Of a DNA stretch of 64,000 nt, positions 1-41,625 are shown in pieces (the stretch's first letter is position 1; the number at the start of each line of letters is the position of its first letter). Source of the stretch: Senegalia massiliensis (GTDB lineage Bacteria > Bacillota > Clostridia > Tissierellales > SIT17); contig NZ_LR130786.1 of assembly GCF_900626135.1 (NCBI RefSeq), forward strand, positions 62,001 to 126,000, given 5' to 3'. The notes beneath the pieces were generated by a model. That model was not told where the DNA came from and did no database searches. It worked only from the letters and a program-made list of their open reading frames with translations. Both the position numbers and the translations under genes were made by a program.

Positions 1-244
1 CTTGGAAATAAAAACAATCAGGGAATTATACTTCTAATAATACTAAAATGACTAAAACAGGTAATAGATATCTTCGATATTATATGGTTGTATCGACTAA
101 TACTGCTAAAAACAATATTACAGTATACAGAAATTATTACTACAAAAAGTTTAATGGGTCAAGCACTTATAAAATAAAAGATCACTTGCACTTACATCAC
201 GTGAATTAGTACGCCTGATTTTTAGATTGTCGCCTAACTATTGA
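1..244 (+). pseudogene. Decayed C-terminal part of an IS110-family transposase
   Basis: The plus strand reads through the tail of an IS110-type transposase, but only if the frame is changed twice. One frame gives LGNKNNQG, a second gives NTKMTKTGNRYLRYYMVV and continues to YKIKDH. The conserved end, SLALTSRELVRLIFRLSPNY with stop TGA at 242-244, is in a third frame. GNKYLRYY and the final RKLVRLIF-like block are typical of the IS110 C-terminal (transposase_20) domain. The gene is therefore a frameshifted, inactive remnant, cut by the window edge. Its stop lies 10 bases from the end of the lysyl-tRNA synthetase gene and marks one edge of the gene cluster that follows. The family call comes from motif recognition only. 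Confidence 0.75.
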
Positions 245-254
245 CATTAAAGCT

Positions 255-1754
255 TCATTTATTTTGGGGTTTCATTAGAGGGAATATTACACATTCTCTA
301 ATTGGTTTATCCATCATCATAGAGAATAGTCTCTCTGAAAATCCGAAACCAAATGCAGGAGGCATTCCATACTTCAAAGCCTCAACAAAATCTTCATCAT
401 GATTATGTGCTTCTTCGTCTCCTGCTTCACTCATCATTCTTTGTTCATTAAATCTTTCATCTAAATCTAAAGGATCATTTAACTCGCTGTATCCATTACC
501 CATTTCTGATCCAGCAAGAATGATTTGCATCTGTGCAACCTTTCTAGGATCTTCTTTAAGTCTTTTTGGTAATGGATTAAGTTGAACCGGTTGTCCTACT
601 AAGAATCCAGGACCAGACAAGTCTTTTCTAACAACTTTCCATAGTAGATCAACAAGTCTCCAGTAACCTAGATCAGGATCAAATATGACATCAAAAGATT
701 CAAGTTTTTCTTTAATGTCCTCTAAACTCGTATTATAGATATCAACACCTACATTTTCTTTTATAACTTCTTGAAAATCATAAATTTCCCATTCTTTATC
801 CATATCTATCTCAAATCCACGTGATATGAATTTTGAGGTTCCCATTAATGCTTTAGTAATTTTCCTGTACAACTCTTTTGTTATCTCCATTCCATCGCTA
901 TAATCAGCATATGCCCAATAGAACTCCATTTGAGTATAATCCTGTAGATGTTCATTACTCATACCTTCATTCCGAAACTGTCTTCCAATTTCGAATGTCT
1001 TTTCAAATCCAGCAACCAATAGCTTTTTCTGCCATAATTCACCCATAGATATTCTTAAGAATACATCAATACCTAAAGCATTGTGGTGTGTCTTAAAAGG
1101 TTTTGATGCAGCTCCACCTGATGAAACTTCAAGTATTGGAGTTTCTACTTCTAAAAAGCCTTTTTCAAGTAAGAAGTTTCTGACTGTGCTCCAAAATATT
1201 TGCTTCTTTATAAAAAGCTCTTTAACATCTTTATTCATAATAATATCAAGATATCTTTTTCTAAACTTCATGTCTTCATCTGTAATGCCATGGAATTTAT
1301 CTGGTAATGGCTTAAGTGCTTTCGTCAAGTGTTTATATGTTTGAACTCTTACACTCAATTCATCTGTTTGAGTTTTGAATACTTTGCCTTCAATTCCAAT
1401 TATATCTCCAATATCTGTTTGATTGTATACTTCAAACTCCAACTGAGTTATCTGATCCGCTCTAACATATACTTGAATTTGACCTTCCACATCTTGAATA
1501 TGCATGAAACCTGCCTTACCTTTGCCTCGTTTTGTCATAACTCTTCCAGCTAGAGAGACAGTTATATTTTTTTCAAGTAGTGCTTTTCTTGAATATTGAG
1601 AATAATTATTGATCAATTCTTTTGAGTGAGTTGATGCTATGAATTTATCACCAAATGGGTCAATACCTAAATCTCTCAGCTTGTTCATTTTCTCAGTTCT
1701 AATTAATTCATGTTCACTAATTCTTTTTACATTTGAAAATTCTTGAGTATTCAT
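255..1754 (-). CDS. lysS: Divergent class II lysyl-tRNA synthetase
   Basis: Charges tRNA-Lys with lysine in the cytoplasm. About 499 residues if translation starts at the ATG at 1754, the usual length; an upstream AAGGAG is about 14 bases away, so the start is likely but not certain. An N-terminal OB fold (VSLAGRVMTKRGKGKAGF) is followed by the class II core: motif 2 around FEIGRQFRNEG and the ELND region. The sequence differs from the housekeeping bacterial type in several places: SMGELWQKKL where APELYLK is common, motif 3 reading GFGFSERLF rather than GIGIDRL, and a C-terminus ending IRECVIFPLMKP. It sits last in a minus-strand gene set with ATP-grasp ligases and nucleotide-enzyme homologues, next to an IS remnant. 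It could be a second, cluster-linked copy (resistance or lysine activation) or simply the only lysS of the genome; the window cannot decide. Confidence 0.9.
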   Translation of the reverse strand: MNTQEFSNVKRISEHELIRTEKMNKLRDLGIDPFGDKFIASTHSKELINNYSQYSRKALLEKNITVSLAGRVMTKRGKGKAGFMHIQDVEGQIQVYVRADQITQLEFEVYNQTDIGDIIGIEGKVFKTQTDELSVRVQTYKHLTKALKPLPDKFHGITDEDMKFRKRYLDIIMNKDVKELFIKKQIFWSTVRNFLLEKGFLEVETPILEVSSGGAASKPFKTHHNALGIDVFLRISMGELWQKKLLVAGFEKTFEIGRQFRNEGMSNEHLQDYTQMEFYWAYADYSDGMEITKELYRKITKALMGTSKFISRGFEIDMDKEWEIYDFQEVIKENVGVDIYNTSLEDIKEKLESFDVIFDPDLGYWRLVDLLWKVVRKDLSGPGFLVGQPVQLNPLPKRLKEDPRKVAQMQIILAGSEMGNGYSELNDPLDLDERFNEQRMMSEAGDEEAHNHDEDFVEALKYGMPPAFGFGFSERLFSMMMDKPIRECVIFPLMKPQNK

Positions 1755-2030
1755 AATTTTATCAAACTCTCCTTTTTTATAGTTCATGATTTTTAATATT
1801 AAGTCATATTTCTTAAACAAAAATATATGTGATAAGATTCCAGAAACAAATCAATAAAATTTTAAGTACTATAATCTTAATATCAGGCTCTTTTCACCTA
1901 TAAATTATATTCTTACCTTTTACAGTTAGCATGTCAGTGCAATGGTCAACTTACATGTAACTTAATTGTTAGCTTTTTCAATATAAAAGCCAATTATCCA
2001 ATATTATTAACTTAATAATTGTTAATTACT

Positions 2031-3218
2031 CTAAAGTCCTTTAAAATAATCTATAACTTCATTCAATTTATCAAAAGAATCTTCATCTTTTCTAATAGAT
2101 ACTTCAAAAATCCCAACTCTTCTCATGCTATTTTTCTTCATGTCTGGGATTTTATCGCCGATTTTCCAGTCATACTTCAAACCTTTAACAAACTGAAAAT
2201 GTTGTTTTAAGTCAGATAAAGAAGGGAGCTCTTTTATATCTTTCCTTAAGACTGGAATATATGAAAAACCATATGCTTCATCTGATAATGAAGGTTCTTC
2301 AATATTAAGTTTTAATTGTGTACTTGCAACCAACTCATTGAGATTTAACCCAAAAAGAGATTGATAACAATCTACAATCATTCCACCCCCAGGTCGGGCA
2401 CCACACTCACTGAATACATATTGCCCACTGCTACTAAAAAATTCTAAATGAAAAACGCCATTCTGGTAATCTAACGACTTTAAAGTTTTGGTCAAAAAGC
2501 TTTCTACTTCTGAGTATAAGGCTTTATTTGCTTCTGGATGTACTTGAATGGCTTTAACCACATGCCCTTGATTTATTTGTATAACCGGCTTTTCATATTT
2601 GCTGACGCAAAAAGTGCCTAACTTACCATCAACTATATAGCCATCAGCAAAATATTCTTGACCATTAACAAACTCCTCTATTAAATATTTCTTTCCTTTA
2701 TTCAATTTGTGTGACATTACTATTAAATTCTCAAATGTATCAATCACAAATGTTGAATTTGTTGCAAACCCATCAATAGGTTTTATAACAATAGGATAAG
2801 TTAAATAAATATCTTCATTTTTTAATTCATATAAATTTTCTAATATCTGTATTTTTGTTACAGGGACACATTCTTTTGCTTTTAATTTTTGAAGATACTT
2901 GTTTCTCATAATAAAAGATTGTTCATAGTTCTTAAATTTTTTATTTATTAGAAATTCAAGAAAACCTGCAGTTATCATACCTCCTTCATATGAAGTGATA
3001 ATTGCGTCATACTTTTCCGGTTTACCTATGAAAATTGCGGATACTTGATCTAGCTTTCTTACATCTTCTACATATAACCTTTTCCTTACTTCACTTAAAT
3101 TGTCTCTATCTTCTTCATAATCCCATTGATCTATTAAGTTATCTACTATTATGTTACTTCTTGTGCAGTGCTCTATTAGCTTTTTATTATGACCTACTAT
3201 TAGAACTTTCTTTTTCAA
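2031..3218 (-). CDS. ATP-grasp ligase, copy 1
   Basis: Predicted ATP-dependent carboxylate-amine (or thiol) ligase of about 395 residues. The fold is shown by the nucleotide-binding stretch PIVIKPIDGFATNS, the IEEFVNGQEYFADGY strand pair and the metal-binding end FHLEFF...FSECGARPGGG, in the order seen in L-amino-acid-ligase-type ATP-grasp proteins. The N-terminus MKKKVLIVGHNKKLIE resembles a pre-ATP-grasp Rossmann-like domain. The best start is a TTG at 3218 after GGTGG; this overlaps the end of the upstream ATP-grasp gene by 32 bases, so the two are probably translationally coupled. The two copies resemble each other throughout and look like an old tandem duplication. The substrate is unknown; by family the product would be an amide or peptide bond. 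Confidence 0.85.
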   Translation of the reverse strand: MKKKVLIVGHNKKLIEHCTRSNIIVDNLIDQWDYEEDRDNLSEVRKRLYVEDVRKLDQVSAIFIGKPEKYDAIITSYEGGMITAGFLEFLINKKFKNYEQSFIMRNKYLQKLKAKECVPVTKIQILENLYELKNEDIYLTYPIVIKPIDGFATNSTFVIDTFENLIVMSHKLNKGKKYLIEEFVNGQEYFADGYIVDGKLGTFCVSKYEKPVIQINQGHVVKAIQVHPEANKALYSEVESFLTKTLKSLDYQNGVFHLEFFSSSGQYVFSECGARPGGGMIVDCYQSLFGLNLNELVASTQLKLNIEEPSLSDEAYGFSYIPVLRKDIKELPSLSDLKQHFQFVKGLKYDWKIGDKIPDMKKNSMRRVGIFEVSIRKDEDSFDKLNEVIDYFKGL

Positions 3219-4431
3219 AACTTCCACCACTTTCAATAATAAATTTCTTGAAATCAGACACAACTTTTTCTAGATTAAAAAACGTTTCTTCTTCACTTTT
3301 TCCTTTAACAATAAATCTACCTATTCTAGATGAAGTTGACGCATTACTATCAGGTATTCCCATACCACATTCCCACTCATACTCAAATGCAATCAAATCC
3401 TTATTTTTTTCCTTTAGATAGTCTGCGGATGGCAATTCAATAATTACTGTCGGACTTGGCAAATAGCTAAATCCAGTATTAGTACTAATTTCTTTAAAGC
3501 TTCCTTTATATTTTTCGGGCTCTAATTGAACCAAATTCATGTCAATATCAAAATTGTACTTGAATTTTTCCTCGACTAATGTTCCACCTAATCTGGCGGC
3601 ACATTCGCTAAAAACTATCTCTCCATTTTCATTTAAAAAGAATTCTAAATGGAATACACTATTTCCTAAATCAAGAGTTGGCATTACTGAATTAAGTATA
3701 GTTTCCACCTCATTATATAAGTCTTCATGTTCACTCTTCTTTAATGAAATCCCTTGTGTAAGTTCTCCATTATAAATATTTAACAACGGCGTTACATATT
3801 TAGAAACAATAAATTGCTGAAGTTTATAATCTGAAAACCATCCATCAACATAATACTCAGTTCCACTAACAAATGACTCCACAATTATAGTATTAAATCT
3901 GTTATACATAGCATCCAGTTTCGGTTTCACTTCTAAAAAAGTTTTTTTATCAGTAATTTTATAAGTAAAAATTGTTCCTGTACCAGAGTTTGGCTTAATA
4001 ACAAATGGGGTTCCAACTAATTTTTTCAAATCATCAAAGCTAAACGCCTCATCATATTCTGTATACTTAGGCAATTTCACAGCACCCGCTAGTTTGGTTT
4101 TCTGGATGATCTTATCTCTAAAAGAAATTGCCACATTAGGCAAAATATAATCAACAGAAAGCAGCTTTGCCATTATAGATACATTCACTAGTGTATATTC
4201 ATAAGGTGAAATGACTAGATCTATATCCTCTGCCTGATTTCTCATTAGTGAAGATAACACAAAAAAATCATTAGTACTATCTTTCACTTTTATTCTCATT
4301 TCATGATTCTCAGGACTAGGTAAAAACTCTGGATCGTCCCAATCGTCTATTACTTGAATTAGTTTGATATTCTTATTTCTAGTAGATTCTACTAATGATT
4401 TTTTAAATCCATAACATAAAACATTCTTCAT
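3187..4431 (-). CDS. ATP-grasp ligase, copy 2
   Basis: Second predicted ATP-grasp ligase, about 414 residues from the ATG at 4431, which follows GAGGTG at good spacing; the open frame runs further upstream but without a ribosome site. Visible elements are an N-terminal MKNVLCYGFKKSLVE domain, the ATP-binding segment PFVIKPNSGTGTIF, the VESFVSGTEYYVDGWF pair and the C-terminal metal site FHLEFFLNENGEIVFSECAA. In both paralogues the Asn of the common E-x-N-x-R-x-GG motif is replaced (Ala here, Gly in copy 1), which is also seen in other amino-acid ligases of this superfamily. Two ligases in a row suggest two successive condensations, or a heteromeric enzyme. Substrates cannot be read from sequence. 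Confidence 0.85.
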   Translation of the reverse strand: MKNVLCYGFKKSLVESTRNKNIKLIQVIDDWDDPEFLPSPENHEMRIKVKDSTNDFFVLSSLMRNQAEDIDLVISPYEYTLVNVSIMAKLLSVDYILPNVAISFRDKIIQKTKLAGAVKLPKYTEYDEAFSFDDLKKLVGTPFVIKPNSGTGTIFTYKITDKKTFLEVKPKLDAMYNRFNTIIVESFVSGTEYYVDGWFSDYKLQQFIVSKYVTPLLNIYNGELTQGISLKKSEHEDLYNEVETILNSVMPTLDLGNSVFHLEFFLNENGEIVFSECAARLGGTLVEEKFKYNFDIDMNLVQLEPEKYKGSFKEISTNTGFSYLPSPTVIIELPSADYLKEKNKDLIAFEYEWECGMGIPDSNASTSSRIGRFIVKGKSEEETFFNLEKVVSDFKKFIIESGGSFEKESSNSRS

Positions 4432-5256
4432 TAAGAAACACCTCAATATCTTGAATTTTTTCTTTAAATTAGTTAGTTTATTATAATCCATAAATTCATA
4501 GTAAAAGCTCTTATCCTCAAGCATTTTAATGAGCTCCTCTATTATTTATATATTAATAACAATGTTGCTAACTAATCAATTAGTTTGCAGTGATCATCTG
4601 ATTTATCAATTATATTAAATAACGAAAGGTTGGTATAGGAACAACCGTATATTTTATATTCTTCAAATAAAATACTTCGAACCCGCACCTCAACACTTCT
4701 ACCAAAGCCTATACCCATCGGGTTTTCATTCTTATAAATTATAATAATTCCCAAAATAGAATCTGATTTGATTTACCTTCAATTTCTCTCGTTTCGCTTA
4801 ATCTATATATCTATTTCAAATAGTTAGTATCAATTATTTCGATTTTAACATTCTCATTGAACTTAATAAATTTATAATCGTTATAATGCTCTTTTGAAAC
4901 TTGTAATATAAATTTAAGATCTTCTCTAATGAATGAATTAAAAACTCCTAAAGTCATGAATCAAGTTATTATTTACTGCATTATATCTACTAAAAATCAT
5001 TATATTTGCAGTCCCTATATATCAAAATCATAAATTTATTTGTAAGTATTCATCTTAAACAAATCCGAATTACTGGGTAATCCTTAAATTCTCTGTTTTT
5101 AACAAAATTATTTTTTAATATTCACATATGGAATTATTGGAAATGATAGTCAGTTCCATACCGTTATATCTCAGTAGAATCTACAAGTTTAAAGTCTTCA
5201 CTAAAAATACTAAGACCTTATTTATCAATTTATTTCTAAGTCCACCAAAATTAACT
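4432..5256 (-). other. Long gap inside the gene cluster, with small open frames of unknown status
   Basis: About 825 bases between ATP-grasp copy 2 and the deaminase-like genes hold no recognisable gene. Two short minus-strand frames look protein-like: one of up to 60 codons (4572-4754, possible TTG start, contains NPMGIGFGRS) and one of 48 codons (4811-4957, starts MTLGVFNSFIRED). Neither has a convincing ribosome site or a family I know. They may be remnants of a lost gene, or small real proteins. The gap may also hold a promoter for the ATP-grasp and lysS genes; none was assigned. Confidence 0.35.
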
Positions 5257-5781
5257 TTAATCATTTTCATAGTCCAAATATGTTTTTGAAGTTGCTGGCC
5301 CTTTGCCATTTTGATATTTCCCATCGTATAAAGTGATTTCTCCAAGTGGCTGCCAAAAAGTCATTTGACCAATACTCATATTGGGGTAAACAACAACATC
5401 TTCCGTTGGCATAAACTGGAATGTGATCCTTCCTTTATAGCCAATATCTATAAGATCAGCGGTTACATGTACAAATAATCCTAGTCTTGCGATTCCAGAC
5501 TTTCCATGAATTATAGGTACGTAGAAATCACTTCCAATCACTTCCATACTTGCTCCTAAACAAAATTCACCCTTATTAAGTTTCAAGCCTTCTGGAGGTA
5601 TTTTAATTTTTTTATATGGATTATCTAGTTTTGGATCCAGTACATCTTGAGTATAGAATATTAATTCAGGAAAAAGAGATAAATCATATGAGTTTGTTGA
5701 TAAATTTTTTTTGTTAAAAGGGTTAATATCAATTTTCTTATTTAAATATTCTTCATAAATTTTATTTCTTGTCAATATCAT
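5257..5781 (-). CDS. dCTP-deaminase/dUTPase-superfamily protein A (catalytic Glu replaced)
   Basis: A 174-residue homologue of dCTP deaminase, the trimeric enzyme that turns dCTP into dUTP. The N-terminus MILTRNKIYEEY matches the family's MILSDR-type start, which fixes the start at 5781 although the frame is open upstream. The core block GKSGIARLGLFV corresponds to the family's GRSSLARLG segment with the active-site Ser and Arg kept, followed by DLIDIGYKG. In E. coli Dcd the catalytic Glu138 lies in a VLEFYN-like strand; the equivalent here reads ITFQFMP, with Gln in place of Glu. The protein may therefore not deaminate, or may act on another substrate or as a partner of copy B. The C-terminus keeps a YQNGKGPATSK-like tail typical of the nucleotide-closing lid. 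An overlapping 13-codon frame precedes the start. Confidence 0.8.
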   Translation of the reverse strand: MILTRNKIYEEYLNKKIDINPFNKKNLSTNSYDLSLFPELIFYTQDVLDPKLDNPYKKIKIPPEGLKLNKGEFCLGASMEVIGSDFYVPIIHGKSGIARLGLFVHVTADLIDIGYKGRITFQFMPTEDVVVYPNMSIGQMTFWQPLGEITLYDGKYQNGKGPATSKTYLDYEND

Positions 5782-5819
5782 AATATTAATTGTATGATCA
5801 ATACAGAAGCAAAAATCAT
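5778..5819 (-). other. Possible 13-codon leader cistron overlapping the deaminase-like A start
   Basis: After AAAGGAG on the minus strand an ATG at 5819 opens a 13-codon frame (MIFASVLIIQLIL). Its TGA stop overlaps the ATG of the deaminase-like gene A as ATGA. The ATG of gene A has no ribosome site of its own at normal distance, so the mini-cistron could deliver ribosomes by coupling. This is inferred from layout alone. Confidence 0.35.
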
Positions 5820-5975
5820 ACTCTCCTTTCATTTTATTAATTCTAGTTGATTGTAAAAATATAAGCTTACATTTACAAGACTATAATCGAGGAAAATATA
5901 AACTGCATACAATTGTCTTCAATGGCGTACTTATAATCTTAAGCAACCAACATCACACCTCAGTTTTCAAGGTAT

Positions 5976-6491
5976 CTAAACAAATGTTTGTTTCATTAAT
6001 ATGCTTTCTCTGGGATCACTAAAATTGTTGTAATAGTGTTGAGTTTTCTCTACTTTTCCATAGTTCGTCCAAAATGATACTTGTCCAATTACCATTTTAT
6101 AATTAAGTACGATATTATTGGGAGAATAGATTTCTAGTGTCCATTTATGGCTTGATCCTGTATGTCCTAGATTTGCCGATATTTGCAAAAATAATCCTAA
6201 TCTTCCAAGTGAACTTTTCCCAATCAATGACATTGCATATCTACTTGAACCTATTTCCTCATATGTTACACCTAAGTATAAGGTGTCTTTTTTTATAACG
6301 TAGCTTCCACGTTCCTTCAAATCTATTACATTGAATTTCAATCTGCTATCTTCATCATAATATGCTTCTTTTAAATATTGTCCTAACCTATAGTTGTAGC
6401 TATCGCGTTTTATTTGATCTAAAGAAAATGGTTCTAAAGAAATTTTACCAAGCTTATATTCTTCATGTATTTGTTTACCTGTTAATATCAT
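5976..6491 (-). CDS. dCTP-deaminase/dUTPase-superfamily protein B
   Basis: Second deaminase-like protein, 171 residues, paralogous to copy A (MILTGKQIHEEY against MILTRNKIYEEY). The core LIGKSSLGRLGLFL keeps the Ser and Arg of the dCTP deaminase active-site loop, and the strand WTLEIYSP keeps the Glu that copy A lacks. The usual RIDPGW segment, however, is replaced by NLGHTGSSHKW, and the C-terminal lid is short (DPRESILMKQ). Canonical dCTP deaminase activity is therefore uncertain. It begins four bases after the end of the methyltransferase-like gene and is surely in the same transcript. One possibility is an A/B mixed trimer in which only B supplies the catalytic Glu. Confidence 0.8.
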   Translation of the reverse strand: MILTGKQIHEEYKLGKISLEPFSLDQIKRDSYNYRLGQYLKEAYYDEDSRLKFNVIDLKERGSYVIKKDTLYLGVTYEEIGSSRYAMSLIGKSSLGRLGLFLQISANLGHTGSSHKWTLEIYSPNNIVLNYKMVIGQVSFWTNYGKVEKTQHYYNNFSDPRESILMKQTFV

Positions 6492-6494
6492 ATT

Positions 6495-7298
6495 CTAAAA
6501 CAACTCCACATATCTTTCCGGATAGATATTTTTTCTATATCTTAAAACTAAAACTGAATATTCTTGATACTTTCTTAATTCGTTAGTAACTTCTTTGATC
6601 TTATACAATCTATCATAGATGACTGGATAAAGATCTTCACAGTTTAAGTTTTTAACTGCTCGTCTTGTAATACAATCACAATAATATGAGATATCTTCTT
6701 CACTCTCAAATCTTAACTGATTTCGATCTTCATACAGTATCTCGAAATCTTTATATAGCTTCATAACCTCATCATATGGTTCATGCGTTACATCTATGCC
6801 AAACATCTGCTTACAAGAATCAAGAACTTCACTTGGAACTTCTTTTATTGCATAAAACGGAGAAGCGAGTAAGTAGCCATCATCATCAAAATAACTTATA
6901 ATGTTTTCAACCATTTTCCTAGGATTTGAAAAAAACTTCAGACCTCCACCAACTATAACATGTGTGAATTTTTCGTTAGTTTTAAAATTTAATCCATCTT
7001 GAACAAAGTACTCTATATTTGCACTTGGCGAATAGATTTTCTTATTTTTGATCGCACTCTCAATTGCATACCTTGATAAATCAAAAGCTTTACCACTACA
7101 CTTCGTTAAATGCGCTATTTCACGAACCTGAAATCCTGTAGTACATGCAATTTGAAGAATATTTGATGAAGAATCAATATAACTATGATTTATCCATTTA
7201 TTTAAGGTTGTGAATGCACCTGGTAAAACGTTCCATTGGTTTATTAAACCTACAAAGTCTGGGTATGGCATGTTTTCAATAATTAGTTTATTCAGCAT
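6495..7298 (-). CDS. Class I SAM methyltransferase-like protein
   Basis: A 267-residue protein with a Rossmann-type methyltransferase core. Motif I reads ILQIACTTGFQ at about residues 46-56, followed by the acidic strand end GKAFDLS, a VQDGLNF motif and FTHVIVGGGLKFF, where class I enzymes usually have the D-x-V-hydrophobic strand 4. Motif I lacks the full GxGxG, so SAM binding is likely but not certain. It lies between the radical SAM gene (12-base gap) and deaminase-like gene B (3-base gap), in one transcript. The substrate is unknown; it may modify an intermediate of the same pathway. Confidence 0.7.
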   Translation of the reverse strand: MLNKLIIENMPYPDFVGLINQWNVLPGAFTTLNKWINHSYIDSSSNILQIACTTGFQVREIAHLTKCSGKAFDLSRYAIESAIKNKKIYSPSANIEYFVQDGLNFKTNEKFTHVIVGGGLKFFSNPRKMVENIISYFDDDGYLLASPFYAIKEVPSEVLDSCKQMFGIDVTHEPYDEVMKLYKDFEILYEDRNQLRFESEEDISYYCDCITRRAVKNLNCEDLYPVIYDRLYKIKEVTNELRKYQEYSVLVLRYRKNIYPERYVELF

Positions 7299-7310
7299 TC
7301 TAACATCTCC

Positions 7311-8528
7311 TTAAAACATTTTACTTATTTCATTTTCAAGCTTTAAATATGATTTATTCAAAATTTCAAAATCCTTTTTAGTACCCCACCAATGATTATC
7401 ATTATCATATATTGTGTAAGATTCCCAAGTATCTGATAATCCATCTTTCAATTCATTATAAATTAGTGAGCCCGGTAATGGAACAAATCTGTACAAAGAA
7501 ATTCTATCAATATTTTCTCGATTCTTTCTTAGAAATTTTATAGTATCTTCTGTTGTAGATTCATCTTCACCAGGAAAACCATGCATCAAATATAGCTTAA
7601 CCGGAAGTAAATGTTTTTTACATAGTTCTAAAGTCTTTTCTGCCTTTATTATTTTTATGCCTTTTTTCATTTTATTAAGCAACTGTTGAGAACCTGTTTC
7701 CATTCCAAATCGAATTTCTTTACAATTGTTTTGCGCAAATGTTTTTATTATATCTTCATCTACAGTATTCAATCTACTATTACACTCCCAATCAATTTGA
7801 AAACTGCCTAGAATATTGGCTACACCAATAGCATGTGTTTTGTTGAAAGTGAAAGTCTCATCCATGACCGTAAAGCCATCGCATAGGGGGTACTGTTCCA
7901 ATAGTTGTTCTACTTCTTTTTTTATTGAATCTAATCTTCTAAATTTAACTTTTTTTCTATTTTGTATTCCGCAAAACATGCACTTATATGTACATCCTCT
8001 AGATGTCATTATACTCAAAACATGGTTTTGAGTACCTCCAACTCTTCCGTCTAGATACAATAATGTGGGAGGTAATAAATGCCTTGCTGGAAATGGAATA
8101 ATGTTTATATTTGTTTCTATCGATTCTATGATTCCTCTATCTACACAGCCATTCTTAAACCAGTACCTTAAACTTTCTTCTGATTCCCCACGGAAAACAA
8201 CATCTGCTTCTAATTTTTCCAGCACTTCATCTGAATTTGTAGTAGCATGAGTATTGCCTACAATTAAAATTTTAGATTTCAACTTAAAAATATTACGCCT
8301 CTCTAGAAACATTGGAAATGTAACTGCCGCCGTTATACTTAAACAGTAAATATCAGCCTTTGGAAAGTTGTCTTCTTTAAAGTGATTTTCCATTGGAATG
8401 ACTTCTACTTCATATCCATTTTCTTCAAATATTGAGCATATATAAAGCATTCCAAGGGGGGGGAATTCATTTCTATCTTTATAATGAATTTTATCAGTAT
8501 ATTTTGGGTATACAAAAACTACTTTCAT
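7311..8528 (-). CDS. B12-binding-domain radical SAM enzyme
   Basis: A 405-residue radical SAM enzyme with a cobalamin-binding-type N-terminal domain. Residues 1-120 have the family layout: FPPLGMLYICSIFEENGYEVEV near the N-terminus and the GNTHAT turn near residue 91. The iron-sulphur motif CxxxCxxC is at residues 179-186 (CTYKCMFC), followed by the barrel with GFTVMDETF and the KLYLMHGFPGED strand. The family includes methylases, ring-forming enzymes and oxidoreductases acting on unactivated carbons. The start ATG at 8528 overlaps the stop of the kinase-like gene (ATGA), after GAGGTG. Within this gene set it is the best candidate for a skeleton-forming or C-methylating step. Confidence 0.88.
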   Translation of the reverse strand: MKVVFVYPKYTDKIHYKDRNEFPPLGMLYICSIFEENGYEVEVIPMENHFKEDNFPKADIYCLSITAAVTFPMFLERRNIFKLKSKILIVGNTHATTNSDEVLEKLEADVVFRGESEESLRYWFKNGCVDRGIIESIETNINIIPFPARHLLPPTLLYLDGRVGGTQNHVLSIMTSRGCTYKCMFCGIQNRKKVKFRRLDSIKKEVEQLLEQYPLCDGFTVMDETFTFNKTHAIGVANILGSFQIDWECNSRLNTVDEDIIKTFAQNNCKEIRFGMETGSQQLLNKMKKGIKIIKAEKTLELCKKHLLPVKLYLMHGFPGEDESTTEDTIKFLRKNRENIDRISLYRFVPLPGSLIYNELKDGLSDTWESYTIYDNDNHWWGTKKDFEILNKSYLKLENEISKMF

Positions 8529-9148
8529 TTAACATCCACCTCTATCTTTTTGATGATGTGTTCAAATACTAACTCCTCATCTTTATTATTACAGTCAATA
8601 ACATACCCATAATTTTCTCTTGTAAGAAGTTCTTTATACATTGAGGAAACTTCGTACTTTATCTTTAATTCATCTTTCTTACCAAAATCTTTTGCCGTAT
8701 CTCCTCGACTTTTTTGTCTTAATTCAGATATCCTTGGATCTAAATCTAAATAAACATATAAATCTGGTTTTGGAAAAATCCCTGCAATATGATGTAATAA
8801 TTTTACATCCGAACCTAAACAATAAGAGTACGCTATTGAATCATAGTAATACCTATTCATAATCAAAAATTCGCTATTATTGTTATTTGATAATTCAATA
8901 GCATTATTTACATTAATCCATAAATCATGAATTAATAAGTTAGAAACTAAATTTGATGAATAATTGTCTTCGTAGCTAGTACCTATAGGAGAATTTTTTT
9001 GAAGTTCACCTATATAGTATCTCGGTTTATAACCATCACATATCTCGTATTTAATGTTATGGGACTTAAAATAATCTCCTAACTTATTAACTTGGGTAGT
9101 TTTCCCAGAGCCATCAAGCCCTGCAAATGCGATAATTTTTAAACGAAT
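8525..9148 (-). CDS. Thymidylate-kinase-like P-loop kinase with no normal start codon
   Basis: In one open frame this encodes about 207 residues of a thymidylate/nucleotide-kinase-type protein. The P-loop GLDGSGKTTQ is at residues 10-19, NRYYYDSIAYSY corresponds to the DRY(x)S substrate motif, and PDLYVYLDLDP precedes a lid-like basic segment. No ATG, GTG or TTG lies upstream of the P-loop in this frame. The only candidate is an ATT at 9148, correctly spaced from GAGGTGA. If the A6 run at 9150-9155 had five A, a GTG at 9158 would be in frame (VKNIRLKIIAFAG). So the gene uses a rare AUU start, is frameshifted in a homopolymer, or carries a sequencing error. A TTG start near 8866 would remove the P-loop. 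In this context the kinase could phosphorylate a modified (deoxy)nucleotide. Confidence 0.75.
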   Translation of the reverse strand: MRLKIIAFAGLDGSGKTTQVNKLGDYFKSHNIKYEICDGYKPRYYIGELQKNSPIGTSYEDNYSSNLVSNLLIHDLWINVNNAIELSNNNNSEFLIMNRYYYDSIAYSYCLGSDVKLLHHIAGIFPKPDLYVYLDLDPRISELRQKSRGDTAKDFGKKDELKIKYEVSSMYKELLTRENYGYVIDCNNKDEELVFEHIIKKIEVDVK

Positions 9149-9374
9149 ATTTTTTCACCTCACTATTGTAAATAAAATGACTTCTTTTAAATTTGTCTTG
9201 ATTGCAAATTAAAGCTATTGACTTGTAATTATCTAGACATACACTATATTCCAGTCCTTGAATAAGCATCTTATAAGCTTCAAATATCCCCGTTTTTTCT
9301 ATTTCTATGTTTTTACACATTTTGTACTTATCACTCTCCAAAATGGTGTAAGAGCTATCGAAGTAGGCTTGCAA
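9114..9374 (-). CDS. Small hypothetical protein overlapping the kinase-like gene
   Basis: An open frame of 86 codons with a TTG start at 9374 and no clear ribosome site. Its last 15 codons (VKKYSFKNYRICRA and stop) overlap the kinase-like gene in another frame, and its GAGGTGA doubles as the ribosome site of that gene. The body (EKTGIFEAYKMLIQG, ALICNQDKFKRSHF) has protein-like composition but matches no family I know. A 20-codon frame starting MNIKQGRRSIRD lies just upstream in another frame, so a longer ancestral gene broken by a frameshift is possible. Confidence 0.4.
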   Translation of the reverse strand: MQAYFDSSYTILESDKYKMCKNIEIEKTGIFEAYKMLIQGLEYSVCLDNYKSIALICNQDKFKRSHFIYNSEVKKYSFKNYRICRA

Positions 9375-9444
9375 ATTTTCTGTCCCTTATACTTCGCCTT
9401 CCTTGTTTAATATTCATTTATATTCACATTCAATTTTCTCACCC

Positions 9445-10617
9445 TTAAAACAATTTTAATTTTCCAGATAAAATTATTGTTATTGCCCCAGCTATATAAT
9501 AGAACATTCCGAGAGTTATTGCTCCATTATAACCAATACTTAAAAATAAAAAATTTAGAAAAAATGGGCTGAATATTGTTCCTATACTATTTAACAATGA
9601 AGTAATTGCGAACATATTAGAAACATTGCTCTCGTCACTATAAATATATATTCTTGCATTTAATAATGGTTGCAAAATACCAATAGATGAACCAACAAGA
9701 AAATATATAGCAGGATTTACAAAGTTGGGTTCTATCTTTAAACTGAAATAAAATATAGATAAAACTAAATAGCTAAAAAAAATTGAATATCCAAAGGGAA
9801 CTTTGATTTTGCTAAAAATAGCTTTTAAAAAACTACCTGTTAAAGTTCCTAATAAAAACATTGAGCTAAATTTTGCAATACTTTCTAAAGGTGTCACAGA
9901 AAAATACTCTGAATATACAGTCATTACAAAAGTCGAATTACCCATCAACAAATTCAAACAAAATGTTAGAATTACAGATTGAAAAATAATTTTATTCGAT
10001 AAAAATTCGCTAAATGCCAATCTTAAATTAATATTTCTAGTTTCAGTTATTTTAGAGTCGTTGAGAATTAATAATTCAATAAGTGGCACTAAAAATATAA
10101 TAGCATTCAAAAGGGCAATTAATTCCAATGATAACAGTTTATTAATACTTGGAGAAATTATATACGCAAGTGACATTCCAAGGGTTGAAGATAAGTATAT
10201 AAGATTTGATAACGAGTCAATTTTATTAATGGGAATTACATCCTTTTCTATTTTGTTTTGATTAAGATAGAAAACAGTACCAAACAAATCAGAAATAAAG
10301 TTCAAGATTACTATAACTATAATCCCAGCCATATTTTTGAAATCAAAGAATAAAAAACCACAAATAATTAAGTAGCATGAAAATCTTGTAAAACTCGAAA
10401 CTAATAATATATTTTTAATTGAATAGTTATTTATTTTCGTAGAAATAATTGGGCCAATAAGTCGCGGAAAATATTCTAGAACAGTTACAAGCGCAATCAT
10501 CCAACTTGAATATTTTGTTAAAACTAAATAGTTAATAAATATAGGATAGAATAATATATCTCCTATAGAAGACGTTAGATTTGCAATTAATAACGAAACT
10601 GTATTTCGTATTCTCAT
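9445..10617 (-). CDS. MFS-type exporter
   Basis: A hydrophobic protein of about 390 residues with 11-12 predicted membrane segments, in the manner of the macrolide-efflux-like branch of the major facilitator superfamily. The N-terminus MRIRNTVSLLIANLTSSIGD is followed by FPRLIGPIIS in the first loop, where MFS drug exporters have their conserved loop. The start at 10617 is chosen because AGGTGG lies seven bases ahead; the frame is open a little further. It is the first gene of the minus-strand set, behind a possible promoter about 350 bases upstream. An exporter in front of biosynthesis-type genes suggests that the product is secreted or toxic to the producer. Confidence 0.8.
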   Translation of the reverse strand: MRIRNTVSLLIANLTSSIGDILFYPIFINYLVLTKYSSWMIALVTVLEYFPRLIGPIISTKINNYSIKNILLVSSFTRFSCYLIICGFLFFDFKNMAGIIVIVILNFISDLFGTVFYLNQNKIEKDVIPINKIDSLSNLIYLSSTLGMSLAYIISPSINKLLSLELIALLNAIIFLVPLIELLILNDSKITETRNINLRLAFSEFLSNKIIFQSVILTFCLNLLMGNSTFVMTVYSEYFSVTPLESIAKFSSMFLLGTLTGSFLKAIFSKIKVPFGYSIFFSYLVLSIFYFSLKIEPNFVNPAIYFLVGSSIGILQPLLNARIYIYSDESNVSNMFAITSLLNSIGTIFSPFFLNFLFLSIGYNGAITLGMFYYIAGAITIILSGKLKLF

Positions 10618-11079
10618 AGTAGTCCACCTACATGTCAATATTTTTTATTGCCTTAATTGTTTTTTTGAAAAAGTTGATTTATTTTTAAATAAGACAAATA
10701 AAATTTACATAAACCATAAATGTATTAACTAGAATAAATATTTCTGTTTTTTTAACACCGGGAATGAATTATGAAATTTACTCGATTATAACTTCCATTA
10801 TTCAGTTCATAGATAAATTATTTAGTTTAACATGACAAGTCATTTTCAGCAACTTTATCAAAAATTCCTTAATTAGTAATGTCTATATTACTGATTACAG
10901 ATATTTGTTTTTCAAAGTCCAATTTATTTTCTAAAAAAATTGAATTTTACAAATCTTATTTAATACAGTTTAACAAAAAGTACATTTTTTGTCAATAATA
11001 AGTGCCTGGATTTTTCGCAAAATTCTGATTAACATATAATAATGTCCTCTTATAACATTTATGATGTAAGCGTAAAAAC
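10618..11079 (-). other. Long leader or spacer upstream of the exporter gene
   Basis: About 460 very AT-rich bases without a gene. They contain one good promoter candidate on the minus strand (10967-10995), which would give a leader of about 340 nucleotides before the exporter. One short stem (AGTAAT/ATTACT near 10880) is visible; no terminator or known riboswitch was recognised. Confidence 0.4.
10967..10995 (-). promoter_or_regulatory. Candidate sigma-A promoter for the exporter-led gene set
   Basis: On the minus strand TTGACA (10990-10995) is followed after 17 bases by TAAACT (10967-10972). The -35 box is perfect and the -10 box matches four of six. It points towards the MFS gene, whose start is about 350 bases away. 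Confidence 0.45.
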
Positions 11080-11295
11080 GGTTCTTTCCATAGTTAGTTG
11101 ATTAAATAACTATTCCATAATATAATATCTATATATAAAAATTTTGGAGAAATAAATATTGGAAGGTTTAGTTAAATTATTAGATAAAAATTTAGAATAT
11201 ATAAATCATGAAATAATAGAAGATACTATTTACATAAATGTAAAGTCAAGTAAAGAAGAATCTTTTCTAATAACCAACTATAATATACTCCTTCA
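11080..11295 (+). mobile_element. Truncated left end of an ISL3-like insertion sequence
   Basis: The stretch beginning GGTTCTTTCCATAGTTAG at 11080 looks like an ISL3-type terminal repeat. It is followed by GGAG and a TTG start at 11159 opening MEGLVKLLDKNLEYINHEII and DTIYINVKSSKEES, which resembles the N-terminus of ISL3-family transposases. Similarity stops after about 35-45 codons, before the expected zinc-finger cysteines, and the frame runs into unrelated sequence. The rest of the element is deleted. Its right end abuts a broken kinase gene in opposite orientation. Confidence 0.5.
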
Positions 11296-12334: not shown

Positions 12335-13327
12335 CTACAAATATTCACTAATTAAATTAATTGACTTATCTGTAGCATCTAATTCAATTATTGATCCTAT
12401 TGGCATTGTAAACATTGGATGTGTATGACTACAATCTACTTCAGCTAAAAAAGGAAAGTTATATCTGCCTATTACTTCTTCTAATATTTCATATGGCTTC
12501 CTTTTGCTTCCTCTATCTTCAAAAAGTTCATGCTTTCCTAGTATCAATCCACCTATCTTATCAAATATATTATTGGCTTTTAGCATAGCAAATGAACGCT
12601 CTATAGTTTCAGCACCTTTTAAAGAATCTTCTATAAACAATATGTCTCCTTTTTTAATTTCAGGCATGTATTCACTTCCCCATATACCTGCCATTGTATT
12701 CAAGTTCCCTATTATTAATCTACCTTTAATCTTTCCTTCATTTATAGTTATCCACTCATTTTTATTCGATTTTTTGCTTCTATTTTGACTTTCCCAATCT
12801 ATATATTCCTCAGTCCACATTTTTGGCATTTTATAATTATAAGGTATATTAATTTCTTTAACTAAAATATCTTCAAAATATTTAAAATTCAGTTCATTAA
12901 AAGGTTCTATTTCTCCAAATGAAGCTACTAATGCTGGCCCATAAAAAGTAGTTATTCCAGTTTTAGCATAAATAGCAAATAATATTGCTGTCATATCAGA
13001 ATATCCTATAATTATTTTAGGATCTTTTTTTAAAGATTCATAATCTATATATGGTACTATTGAATTTGAATTCATTCCACCTATTGTAGAAATAATGCAT
13101 CTTACTTCTGGGTCTCTTATTAACTGATTTAATTCTTCTGCTCTATCTTTTATACTACCAGACCTATAAAAGTCTTTTTTATCTGTTAAATTTCCAGCTT
13201 TTAATTTAAATCCTTTATTTTCAAGAAATTTTTTACTTCTGTTAAATCTATTAGGGCACAATGCAGTAATAGGTGTTGATGGTGAGAAAAATCCAATTGT
13301 ATCTCCTCTTTTTAGTTTTTTTATCAT
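12335..13327 (-). CDS. LD-carboxypeptidase / MccF-like serine peptidase (S66 family)
   Basis: A 330-residue cytoplasmic serine peptidase. The N-terminal KRGDTIGFFSPSTPI and the nucleophile turn GYSDMT (Ser about residue 110) are family signatures, and the catalytic His lies in DCSHTHPMF near the C-terminus. S66 members trim murein tetrapeptides (LdcA) or cleave peptide-nucleotide antibiotics such as microcin C (MccF); the WESQNRSKK-type insertion makes the MccF-like branch plausible. The gene has its own GGGGG ribosome site and lies about 1.7 kb from the nucleotide/ATP-grasp cluster, beyond the IS remnant. A functional link is speculative. Confidence 0.88.
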   Translation of the reverse strand: MIKKLKRGDTIGFFSPSTPITALCPNRFNRSKKFLENKGFKLKAGNLTDKKDFYRSGSIKDRAEELNQLIRDPEVRCIISTIGGMNSNSIVPYIDYESLKKDPKIIIGYSDMTAILFAIYAKTGITTFYGPALVASFGEIEPFNELNFKYFEDILVKEINIPYNYKMPKMWTEEYIDWESQNRSKKSNKNEWITINEGKIKGRLIIGNLNTMAGIWGSEYMPEIKKGDILFIEDSLKGAETIERSFAMLKANNIFDKIGGLILGKHELFEDRGSKRKPYEILEEVIGRYNFPFLAEVDCSHTHPMFTMPIGSIIELDATDKSINLISEYL

Positions 13328-41382: not shown

Positions 41383-41625
41383 AAAAAATCTTCTCTCCCT
41401 AAAAAGGGACGAAAAGATTCCGCGGTACCACCCTAGTTGTCTTATGACCAACTCTAATCAAAATAACGGTTTGTATCCGTCTAATCCTACTCTCAAAAGA
41501 TTTCAGTTAGAAACTCAAGGATGTTCTTCAATATAGTATACATGTTGAACTTTCACCATAATCAACTCGCTAAAATGTTTTTCTATATCTACTCTTCCTA
41601 TCATAGTCTATTGAATATATTGTAA
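41383..41625 (-). promoter_or_regulatory. T-box leader of asnS
   Basis: On the minus strand the conserved T-box CAACTAGGGTGGTACCGCGG is at 41420-41439. It is followed by a terminator stem (AATCTTTTCGTCCCT against AGGGAGAGAAGATT, 41387-41419) with a T run before asnS. Upstream are stem I features (AGCGAGTTGA and the distal loop region). A candidate specifier AAC, the asparagine codon, is at 41506-41508. Uncharged tRNA-Asn should favour the antiterminator and raise asnS expression. Confidence 0.92.

Follow-up and report, generated by a model that had tools for sequence, protein, structure and literature searches.

A strain-specific island with three lysyl-tRNA synthetase paralogues in Senegalia massiliensis: a candidate nucleotide antibiotic locus of the microcin C/agrocin 84 kind

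Two Trojan-horse antibiotics of the aminoacyl-nucleotide type, microcin C and agrocin 84, are the textbook cases. The target of microcin C is aspartyl-tRNA synthetase; agrocin 84 is a leucyl-AMP mimic whose target is leucyl-tRNA synthetase (LeuRS). In microcin C, MccD moves a 3-amino-3-carboxypropyl (ACP) group from S-adenosylmethionine (SAM) to the phosphate of the peptidyl nucleotide (PMC10491745), and MccF cuts the amide that joins the peptide or amino acid to the nucleotide (PMC9239234). The self-immunity enzyme of agrocin 84 is a resistant LeuRS, AgnB2, encoded on the plasmid pAgK84 (PMC5059758). Here we describe a gene cluster in a stretch of 64,000 nucleotides from Senegalia massiliensis (contig NZ_LR130786.1, G000:C2:62001-126000 in our numbering; hereafter the window). 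We think it probable that the cluster is part of an island for the biosynthesis of an exported aminoacyl- or short peptidyl-nucleotide antibiotic of the microcin C/agrocin 84 kind, built on lysine or a similar basic amino acid and directed against lysyl-tRNA synthetase (LysRS). Protein similarities support well both its membership in the wider kind, that is MccD-containing, synthetase-linked nucleotide antibiotic clusters, and the product class. The target (LysRS), the nucleoside, the product and the uptake route are what we infer.

Protein families were assigned from Pfam/NCBIfam-type matches to the open reading frames (ORFs) of the window. The ten minus-strand genes named in the original prediction, which was made from the DNA letters and ORF translations, are all present, and the family matches agree with it. 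The window truncates the cluster: G000:C2:54900-60907 adds three genes (LysC, a nonribosomal peptide synthetase (NRPS)-type protein and LysB) and extends it 7.1 kb past the left edge. These genes are given below in coordinates of the locus L023 (C2:50001-66000), where the L023 coordinate equals the window coordinate plus 12000.

255 to 1820, minus strand: LysA, a LysRS paralogue, proposed to be a product-resistant (self-immunity) LysRS or a ligase (43% identical to the housekeeping LysRS; catalytic, lysine and anticodon residues kept)
2031 to 3263, minus strand: AGB, ATP-grasp protein resembling amino-acid ligases (31% identical to AGA; profile match to the L-amino acid ligase 4wd3)
3187 to 4524, minus strand: AGA, ATP-grasp protein resembling amino-acid ligases (PF13535)
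5257 to 5832, minus strand: DCD1, dCTP deaminase-like, with Gln in place of the catalytic Glu (PF22769, E 1e-31)
5976 to 6491, minus strand: DCD2, dCTP deaminase-like, Glu kept, two otherwise conserved sites changed (PF22769, E 5e-22)
6495 to 7298, minus strand: MT, predicted from MccD homology to be an MccD-like SAM-dependent 3-amino-3-carboxypropyl transferase
7311 to 8528, minus strand: B12-binding radical SAM enzyme (PF04055 and PF02310, CxxxCxxC present)
8525 to 9148, minus strand: thymidylate kinase-like (TMK-like) nucleotide or nucleoside kinase, full length with an ATT start (PF02223, E 2e-17)
9114 to 9374, minus strand: ORF of 86 amino acids (aa) overlapping the TMK-like gene, without a family match
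9445 to 10617, minus strand: predicted major facilitator superfamily (MFS) exporter (PF07690, E 6e-13)
12335 to 13327, minus strand: MccF-like S66 peptidase, adjacent to the island but outside it (54% identical to E. coli MccF)
L023 9432 to 10907, beyond the window's left edge, same strand as the cluster: LysB, LysRS-like, 491 aa (from a LysRS search of the genome)
L023 6334 to 8481, beyond the left edge, same strand as the cluster: NRPS-type C'-A protein, 715 aa (from its domain content)
L023 4900 to 6315, beyond the left edge, same strand as the cluster: LysC, LysRS-like, 471 aa (from a LysRS search of the genome)
1 to 11265, no strand: the window's share of a strain-specific island of about 21 kb (whole island G000:C2:52044-73265)

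The link to both described systems runs through MT, which had previously been called methyltransferase-like. It is 27.7% identical to MccD over 267 aa, and its sole PDB match is MccD of microcin C (5fcd, E 2e-23). In a tree that took in 27 generic methyltransferases and another methyltransferase of the window, MT groups with MccD (support 0.992) inside a microcin C/agrocin-type clade (0.989). This placement rules out a generic methyltransferase. Because of the homology to MccD (28% identity), MT is likely to be an aminocarboxypropyl transferase rather than a methyltransferase. Its matches on plasmids are few (38 of 72,556 records): 27 from Escherichia, two from Salmonella, six from Agrobacterium/Rhizobium, and one each from Peribacillus, Exiguobacterium and Xenorhabdus. 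The records inspected were one Escherichia mcc operon (ThiF, MFS, MT, decarboxylase-GNAT and S66), pAgK84 and three synthetase-linked clusters; nearly all remaining Escherichia and Salmonella rows among the matches listed are MT and GNAT pairs, and the others are MT alone. The MccD-like profile had no match in 390 other genomes of the class and matched eight others in the phylum, all generic methyltransferases outside the MccD clade. A search with MT across the order (249 genomes) gave distant, generic matches only.

The second group of proteins that bears on the product are the synthetases. A genome-wide search found the housekeeping LysRS intact and far from the cluster (C2:701931-703466), and three paralogues in the cluster: LysA, and LysB and LysC 1–7 kb beyond the window's left edge. 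We compared their residues with 31 canonical LysRS over 184 near-invariant columns, using E. coli LysU numbering with Met1 counted; the positions that contact lysine, ATP or the anticodon are those that we take to do so from LysU structures. LysA keeps 120 of the 184 columns, LysB 114 and LysC 80. All three retain the motif 2/3 arginines R263 and R481, E265, and the lysine contacts E241, E279, Y281 and E429. A239, mostly Ala in canonical LysRS, is replaced by S, G and T, and E415 by Q, Q and W (in the order LysA, LysB, LysC). The anticodon residues F85, Q96 and E135 are kept in LysA, and F85 and Q96 are lost in LysC. LysB and LysC have the catalytic residues but have lost some OB-fold or pocket residues. 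LysA differs from canonical LysRS in pocket residues, in one extra residue directly preceding E241 and in part of motif 3; it carries the marks of a class II LysRS (motif 2/3 arginines, lysine contacts and an anticodon OB fold) and scores 471 bits against a LysRS equivalog cut-off of 427.6 bits. The branches leading to LysA, LysB and LysC are 0.80, 0.85 and 1.97 long, compared with a canonical median of 0.055. Judged by these residues, LysA is likely to be a resistant LysRS copy, and LysB and LysC are likely to be ligases.

AGA and AGB have profile matches to the L-amino acid ligases 4wd3 (E 3e-25 for AGB) and 3vot, with which they share the fold and the overall profile but only distant sequence similarity. 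Both show HLEFF...FSECxARxGG, which fits the C-terminal E...ECxARxGG region of these ligases. Their closest plasmid relatives (E 1e-59 and 6e-48) are found in Peribacillus psychrosaccharolyticus and Exiguobacterium sp. Helios, and AGA is 34% identical to the Peribacillus protein and 33% and 31% identical to two Exiguobacterium proteins. The clusters around these relatives (NZ_CP068052 and NZ_CP053558) share an MccD-like MT, a PF00152 AsnA-like protein, AlaRS-type proteins (alanyl-tRNA synthetases), an MFS protein and an S66 peptidase, and the one in Exiguobacterium also has a PF02223 TMK-like kinase. Both (L083 6943-16200 in Peribacillus, L084 6487-23595 in Exiguobacterium) look like AlaRS-directed relatives of the agrocin 84/microcin C clusters. 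Homologues of the MT and the AsnA-like protein of these two clusters are also adjacent on pAgK84, beside LeuRS. Hence, sequence comparison points to a wider set of clusters that combine an MccD-like enzyme, class II synthetase-fold ligases, a spare synthetase and often an S66 peptidase. The spare synthetase varies: LeuRS on pAgK84 and in Xenorhabdus, annotated AlaRS in Peribacillus and Exiguobacterium, and LysRS paralogues in the cluster described here.

Whether homologues of these genes occur together elsewhere was a check proposed with the original prediction, and the answer is divided. Sub-modules do recur (relatives of the ATP-grasp, MccD-like and class II synthetase proteins with MFS and S66, and the TMK-like kinase in Exiguobacterium), but the full set was found nowhere. 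Among 398 genomes of the phylum, the ATP-grasp profile has one other member (G475:C28:27668-28879). This minimal relative has an MFS neighbor and neither a synthetase nor MccD-like or other cluster genes around it. When 84,980 genomes were scanned for peptide patterns of the radical SAM protein and of the ATP-grasp pair, nothing was confirmed, which is weak evidence of absence since the scans required short exact peptides; a scan of viral contigs with the ATP-grasp pair, with the same requirement, also confirmed nothing. A phage origin was rejected, as no phage record matches the ATP-grasp proteins.

How does the cluster compare with the described systems? With microcin C (mcc, MccA-F) it shares the MccD-like putative ACP transferase, a predicted MFS exporter, an adjacent MccF-like S66 peptidase and, presumably, action by aminoacyl-adenylate mimicry at a class II synthetase. 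It differs in its LysRS paralogues, ATP-grasps, adenylation protein, kinase, deaminase-fold proteins and B12 radical SAM enzyme. With agrocin 84 it shares an MccD-family MT, a divergent aminoacyl-tRNA synthetase copy and class II synthetase-fold ligases. However, where pAgK84 has an AsnA-like PF00152 ligase and LeuRS, we find three LysRS paralogues, ATP-grasps and an adenylation protein. The Peribacillus and Exiguobacterium clusters have the nearest ATP-grasps, and their class II synthetase-fold proteins are a further common feature, but their synthetases are of the AlaRS type, they have an AsnA-like ligase, and they lack the LysRS trio, the dCTP deaminase-like genes and the B12 radical SAM gene. 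The cluster is not an mcc operon, as MccB and MccE are lacking, nor is it the agrocin 84 operon, as the AsnA-like ligase is lacking. We know of no described antibiotic with this lysine-centered, LysRS-aimed combination and, in the open-licence literature, of no bacterial nucleotide antibiotic against LysRS. A natural LysRS inhibitor does exist: cladosporin, a fungal compound that mimics ATP and acts on the malaria enzyme (PMC7916415).

Another indicator of a lysine-like building block is the NRPS-type protein, which consists of a vestigial condensation domain and an adenylation domain and has no carrier domain. Read by eye against GrsA positions, its adenylation pocket is D-I-E-S-I-G-T-V-C-K. 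Because Glu239 and Gly301 recur in published adenylation codes for Lys, Orn and Arg (PMC12283262), the substrate is likely to be a basic amino acid.

The two deaminase-fold proteins are probably not ordinary dCTP deaminases. DCD1 reads TFQF where 13 relatives read TLE[IL], so that the catalytic Glu is Gln; DCD2 keeps the Glu and has GKSS for GRSS and HTG for DxG. In both, Lys stands for the Arg of the GRSS motif, and neither has the complete dCTP deaminase signature of catalytic Glu and GRSS. One could speculate that DCD1 and DCD2 contribute to a single mixed active site. Among PDB entries, 9ccb and AprD4 are closest to the radical SAM protein, for which the search of the 398 phylum genomes gave only distant, generic matches and no close relative. 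The radical SAM protein and the TMK-like protein (the pair spans 7311-9148) match the two parts of one PADLOC candidate defence system, PDC-M51A (3e-15) and PDC-M51B (6e-13), respectively. This points either to a two-gene module that is used in more than one setting or to PDC-M51 itself being a module for a small molecule.

The MccF-like gene lies 1.7 kb upstream of the cluster. Its product is similar to E. coli MccF over 328 aa, its top PDB matches are MccF (E 5e-133), and the Ser and His of the S66 site are present. Because the sister genome G003 also has the gene, it was probably already in place when the island arrived. Standalone immunity genes of the core genome, it has been argued, can be taken up into service by mcc operons (PMC9239234). 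The peptidase may be protective here, as a second immunity factor.

The island itself is defined by comparison with G003. The flanks of G000:C2:52044-73265 are 97–98% identical in nucleotides to G003:C1 and the interior has been replaced; at this site G003 carries about 5.7 kb of unrelated small genes instead. Because the sister lacks the block at the same site, the cluster is dispensable and strain-specific. The full gene set is known from this one genome. Within the cluster, the close spacing described before holds: the gap between MT and DCD2 is 3 bp and that between the radical SAM gene and MT 12 bp, the TMK-like and radical SAM genes overlap by 4 bp, and the small ORF and the TMK-like gene by about 35 bp. 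A non-coding gap of 0.7 kb (4525-5256) separates DCD1 from the ATP-grasp genes, so that the cluster does not form a single continuous operon. All members are intact ORFs that match a protein family; the one exception is the 86-aa ORF, for which Pfam, NCBIfam, PADLOC and PHROGs gave nothing and which is perhaps no gene at all. If one accepts an ATT start preceded by an AGGTG ribosome site, the TMK-like gene encodes 207 aa with the P-loop GLDGSGKTT; the 113-aa ORF obtained by calling ATG, GTG and TTG starts is a truncated version of it. Between LysC, the NRPS-type protein, LysB and LysA lie decayed transposase remnants. The one between LysB and LysA (L023 10907-12254, plus strand, opposite to the cluster) looks IS110-like, a label given by eye from the translated remnant.

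The pathway that we infer from these genes is as follows. The kinase and the deaminase-fold proteins would supply or tailor a nucleoside 5'-phosphate. LysB or LysC, as a LysRS-derived ligase, and/or the adenylation protein would activate lysine, and a non-hydrolysable lysyl-AMP mimic would form. The MccD-like enzyme would attach the 3-amino-3-carboxypropyl group to the phosphate, the ATP-grasps would append amino acids as an uptake vehicle, and the MFS protein would export the product. In the target cell the vehicle would be removed and the payload would inhibit LysRS. In the producer LysA would act as the resistant LysRS, and the neighboring MccF-like peptidase may cleave stray product. It is possible, although we hold this more tentatively than the product class, that the cluster represents a new branch. 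This branch would make a lysyl-adenylate mimic against LysRS without a ribosomal peptide or ThiF chemistry, using LysRS-derived ligases, a LysRS-derived resistance enzyme, an MccD-type ACP transferase with B12 radical SAM tailoring, and a nucleoside from repurposed dCTP deaminase and thymidylate kinase homologues. If the proposed pathway is right, the shared MccD-type step would connect the microcin C and agrocin 84 worlds, a LysRS-targeting compound would come from a poorly mined bacterial group, and the three LysRS paralogues would allow ligase and resistance roles to be told apart.

Several observations speak against the proposed pathway and product class. There is no MccB/ThiF in the cluster, and elsewhere in the genome ThiF matches are generic (31–34% over 76–102 aa); likewise there is no MccE-type decarboxylase or GNAT in the cluster, and generic matches to both elsewhere. 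The cluster has no AsnA-like PF00152 ligase, which agrocin-type clusters typically contain, and LysC resembles AsnA-like proteins at the superfamily level only (best E about 3e-6). The MFS protein does not specifically resemble MccC or the MFS proteins of the related clusters. The MccF-like gene is resident and is also found, 99% identical, in the sister without the cluster. Insertion sequence (IS) remnants are interspersed among the cluster genes, and another genome with the whole set turned up neither in the pattern scans nor in the order, class and phylum searches of a few hundred genomes each.

One could also argue that all three LysRS paralogues are biosynthetic ligases that form amides or esters with lysine or beta-lysine. 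The product would then be an aminoacyl-nucleotide or a lysine-rich peptide, with no resistance copy and with LysRS not the target. The three paralogues are far more divergent than the housekeeping LysRS and group together (albeit with a support of only 0.87–0.88), all three are changed at site 239 and at E415, and PF00152 proteins serve as apparent ligases in agrocin-type clusters. What makes us doubt this explanation, which we consider rather unlikely, is LysA: its OB fold, its anticodon residues and a score above the equivalog cut-off would be needless in a tRNA-independent ligase. Moreover, related clusters hold a full-length second synthetase, and the LeuRS of pAgK84 is a proven self-immunity enzyme (PMC5059758). 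It is more unlikely still that the island is a relic, once functional, now interrupted by IS elements and non-producing. Between LysA, LysB and the NRPS-type protein there are indeed non-coding gaps and transposase remnants (IS110-like and others), the 0.7-kb gap lies between DCD1 and AGA, and the cluster is found in one strain only. However, all 12 family-assigned ORFs are open, the ATP-grasp motifs, LysRS motifs and CxxxCxxC are kept where inspected, and decay is confined to the remnants rather than the biosynthetic genes.

The PADLOC matches of the radical SAM and TMK-like proteins could instead mean that these two and the deaminase-like proteins form an anti-phage system, which depletes nucleotides or makes antiviral ones, and that the other genes are incidental. 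We regard this as very improbable: the deaminase-like, ATP-grasp, LysRS and MT proteins have no PADLOC match, DCD1 lacks the catalytic Glu, and MccD, the ligases, the exporter and the synthetases would be left unexplained. Least credible, to the point that we give it next to no weight, is a chance neighborhood of housekeeping genes for nucleotide salvage and translation, in whose favor nothing speaks but the names of the families (dCTP deaminase, thymidylate kinase, LysRS). The housekeeping LysRS is elsewhere, G003 lives without the block, the deaminases are altered at conserved sites and MT is MccD-like. The proviso attached to the original prediction, that the genes should not turn out to be a nucleotide-salvage operon, is thus borne out. 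Its suggestion of a secreted nucleotide- or amino-acid-derived compound, perhaps aimed at LysRS, held for the compound class, given the MccD homologue, the ATP-grasp kinship, the three LysRS paralogues and the strain-specific island; LysRS as the target we still put forward conditionally. The kinship with microcin C and agrocin 84, the likely ACP-transferase role, the extension outside the window, the MccF-like neighbor and the missing catalytic Glu of DCD1 go beyond it.

Other loci came to light in the same searches. On a Xenorhabdus bovienii megaplasmid, an agrocin-84-like cluster (L091 13935-26117) contains an AsnA-like ligase, an MccD-like MT, an LD-carboxypeptidase, a nucleoside phosphorylase, LeuRS and an MFS protein; it lies near a XyeA/XyeB cluster for a ribosomally synthesized and post-translationally modified peptide. 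A 33-kb plasmid of the honeybee symbiont Apilactobacillus kunkeei (OX335326) carries relatives of the ATP-grasps beside a 2'-deoxynucleoside-5'-phosphate N-hydrolase and a thymidylate synthase homologue (L085 19854-26192), and this locus is likely to be another nucleotide-amino acid cluster. Finally, a search for RNA elements found none within the cluster; elsewhere in the window, and unrelated to the cluster, there is a T-box leader at 41402-41613 on the minus strand (125 bits).

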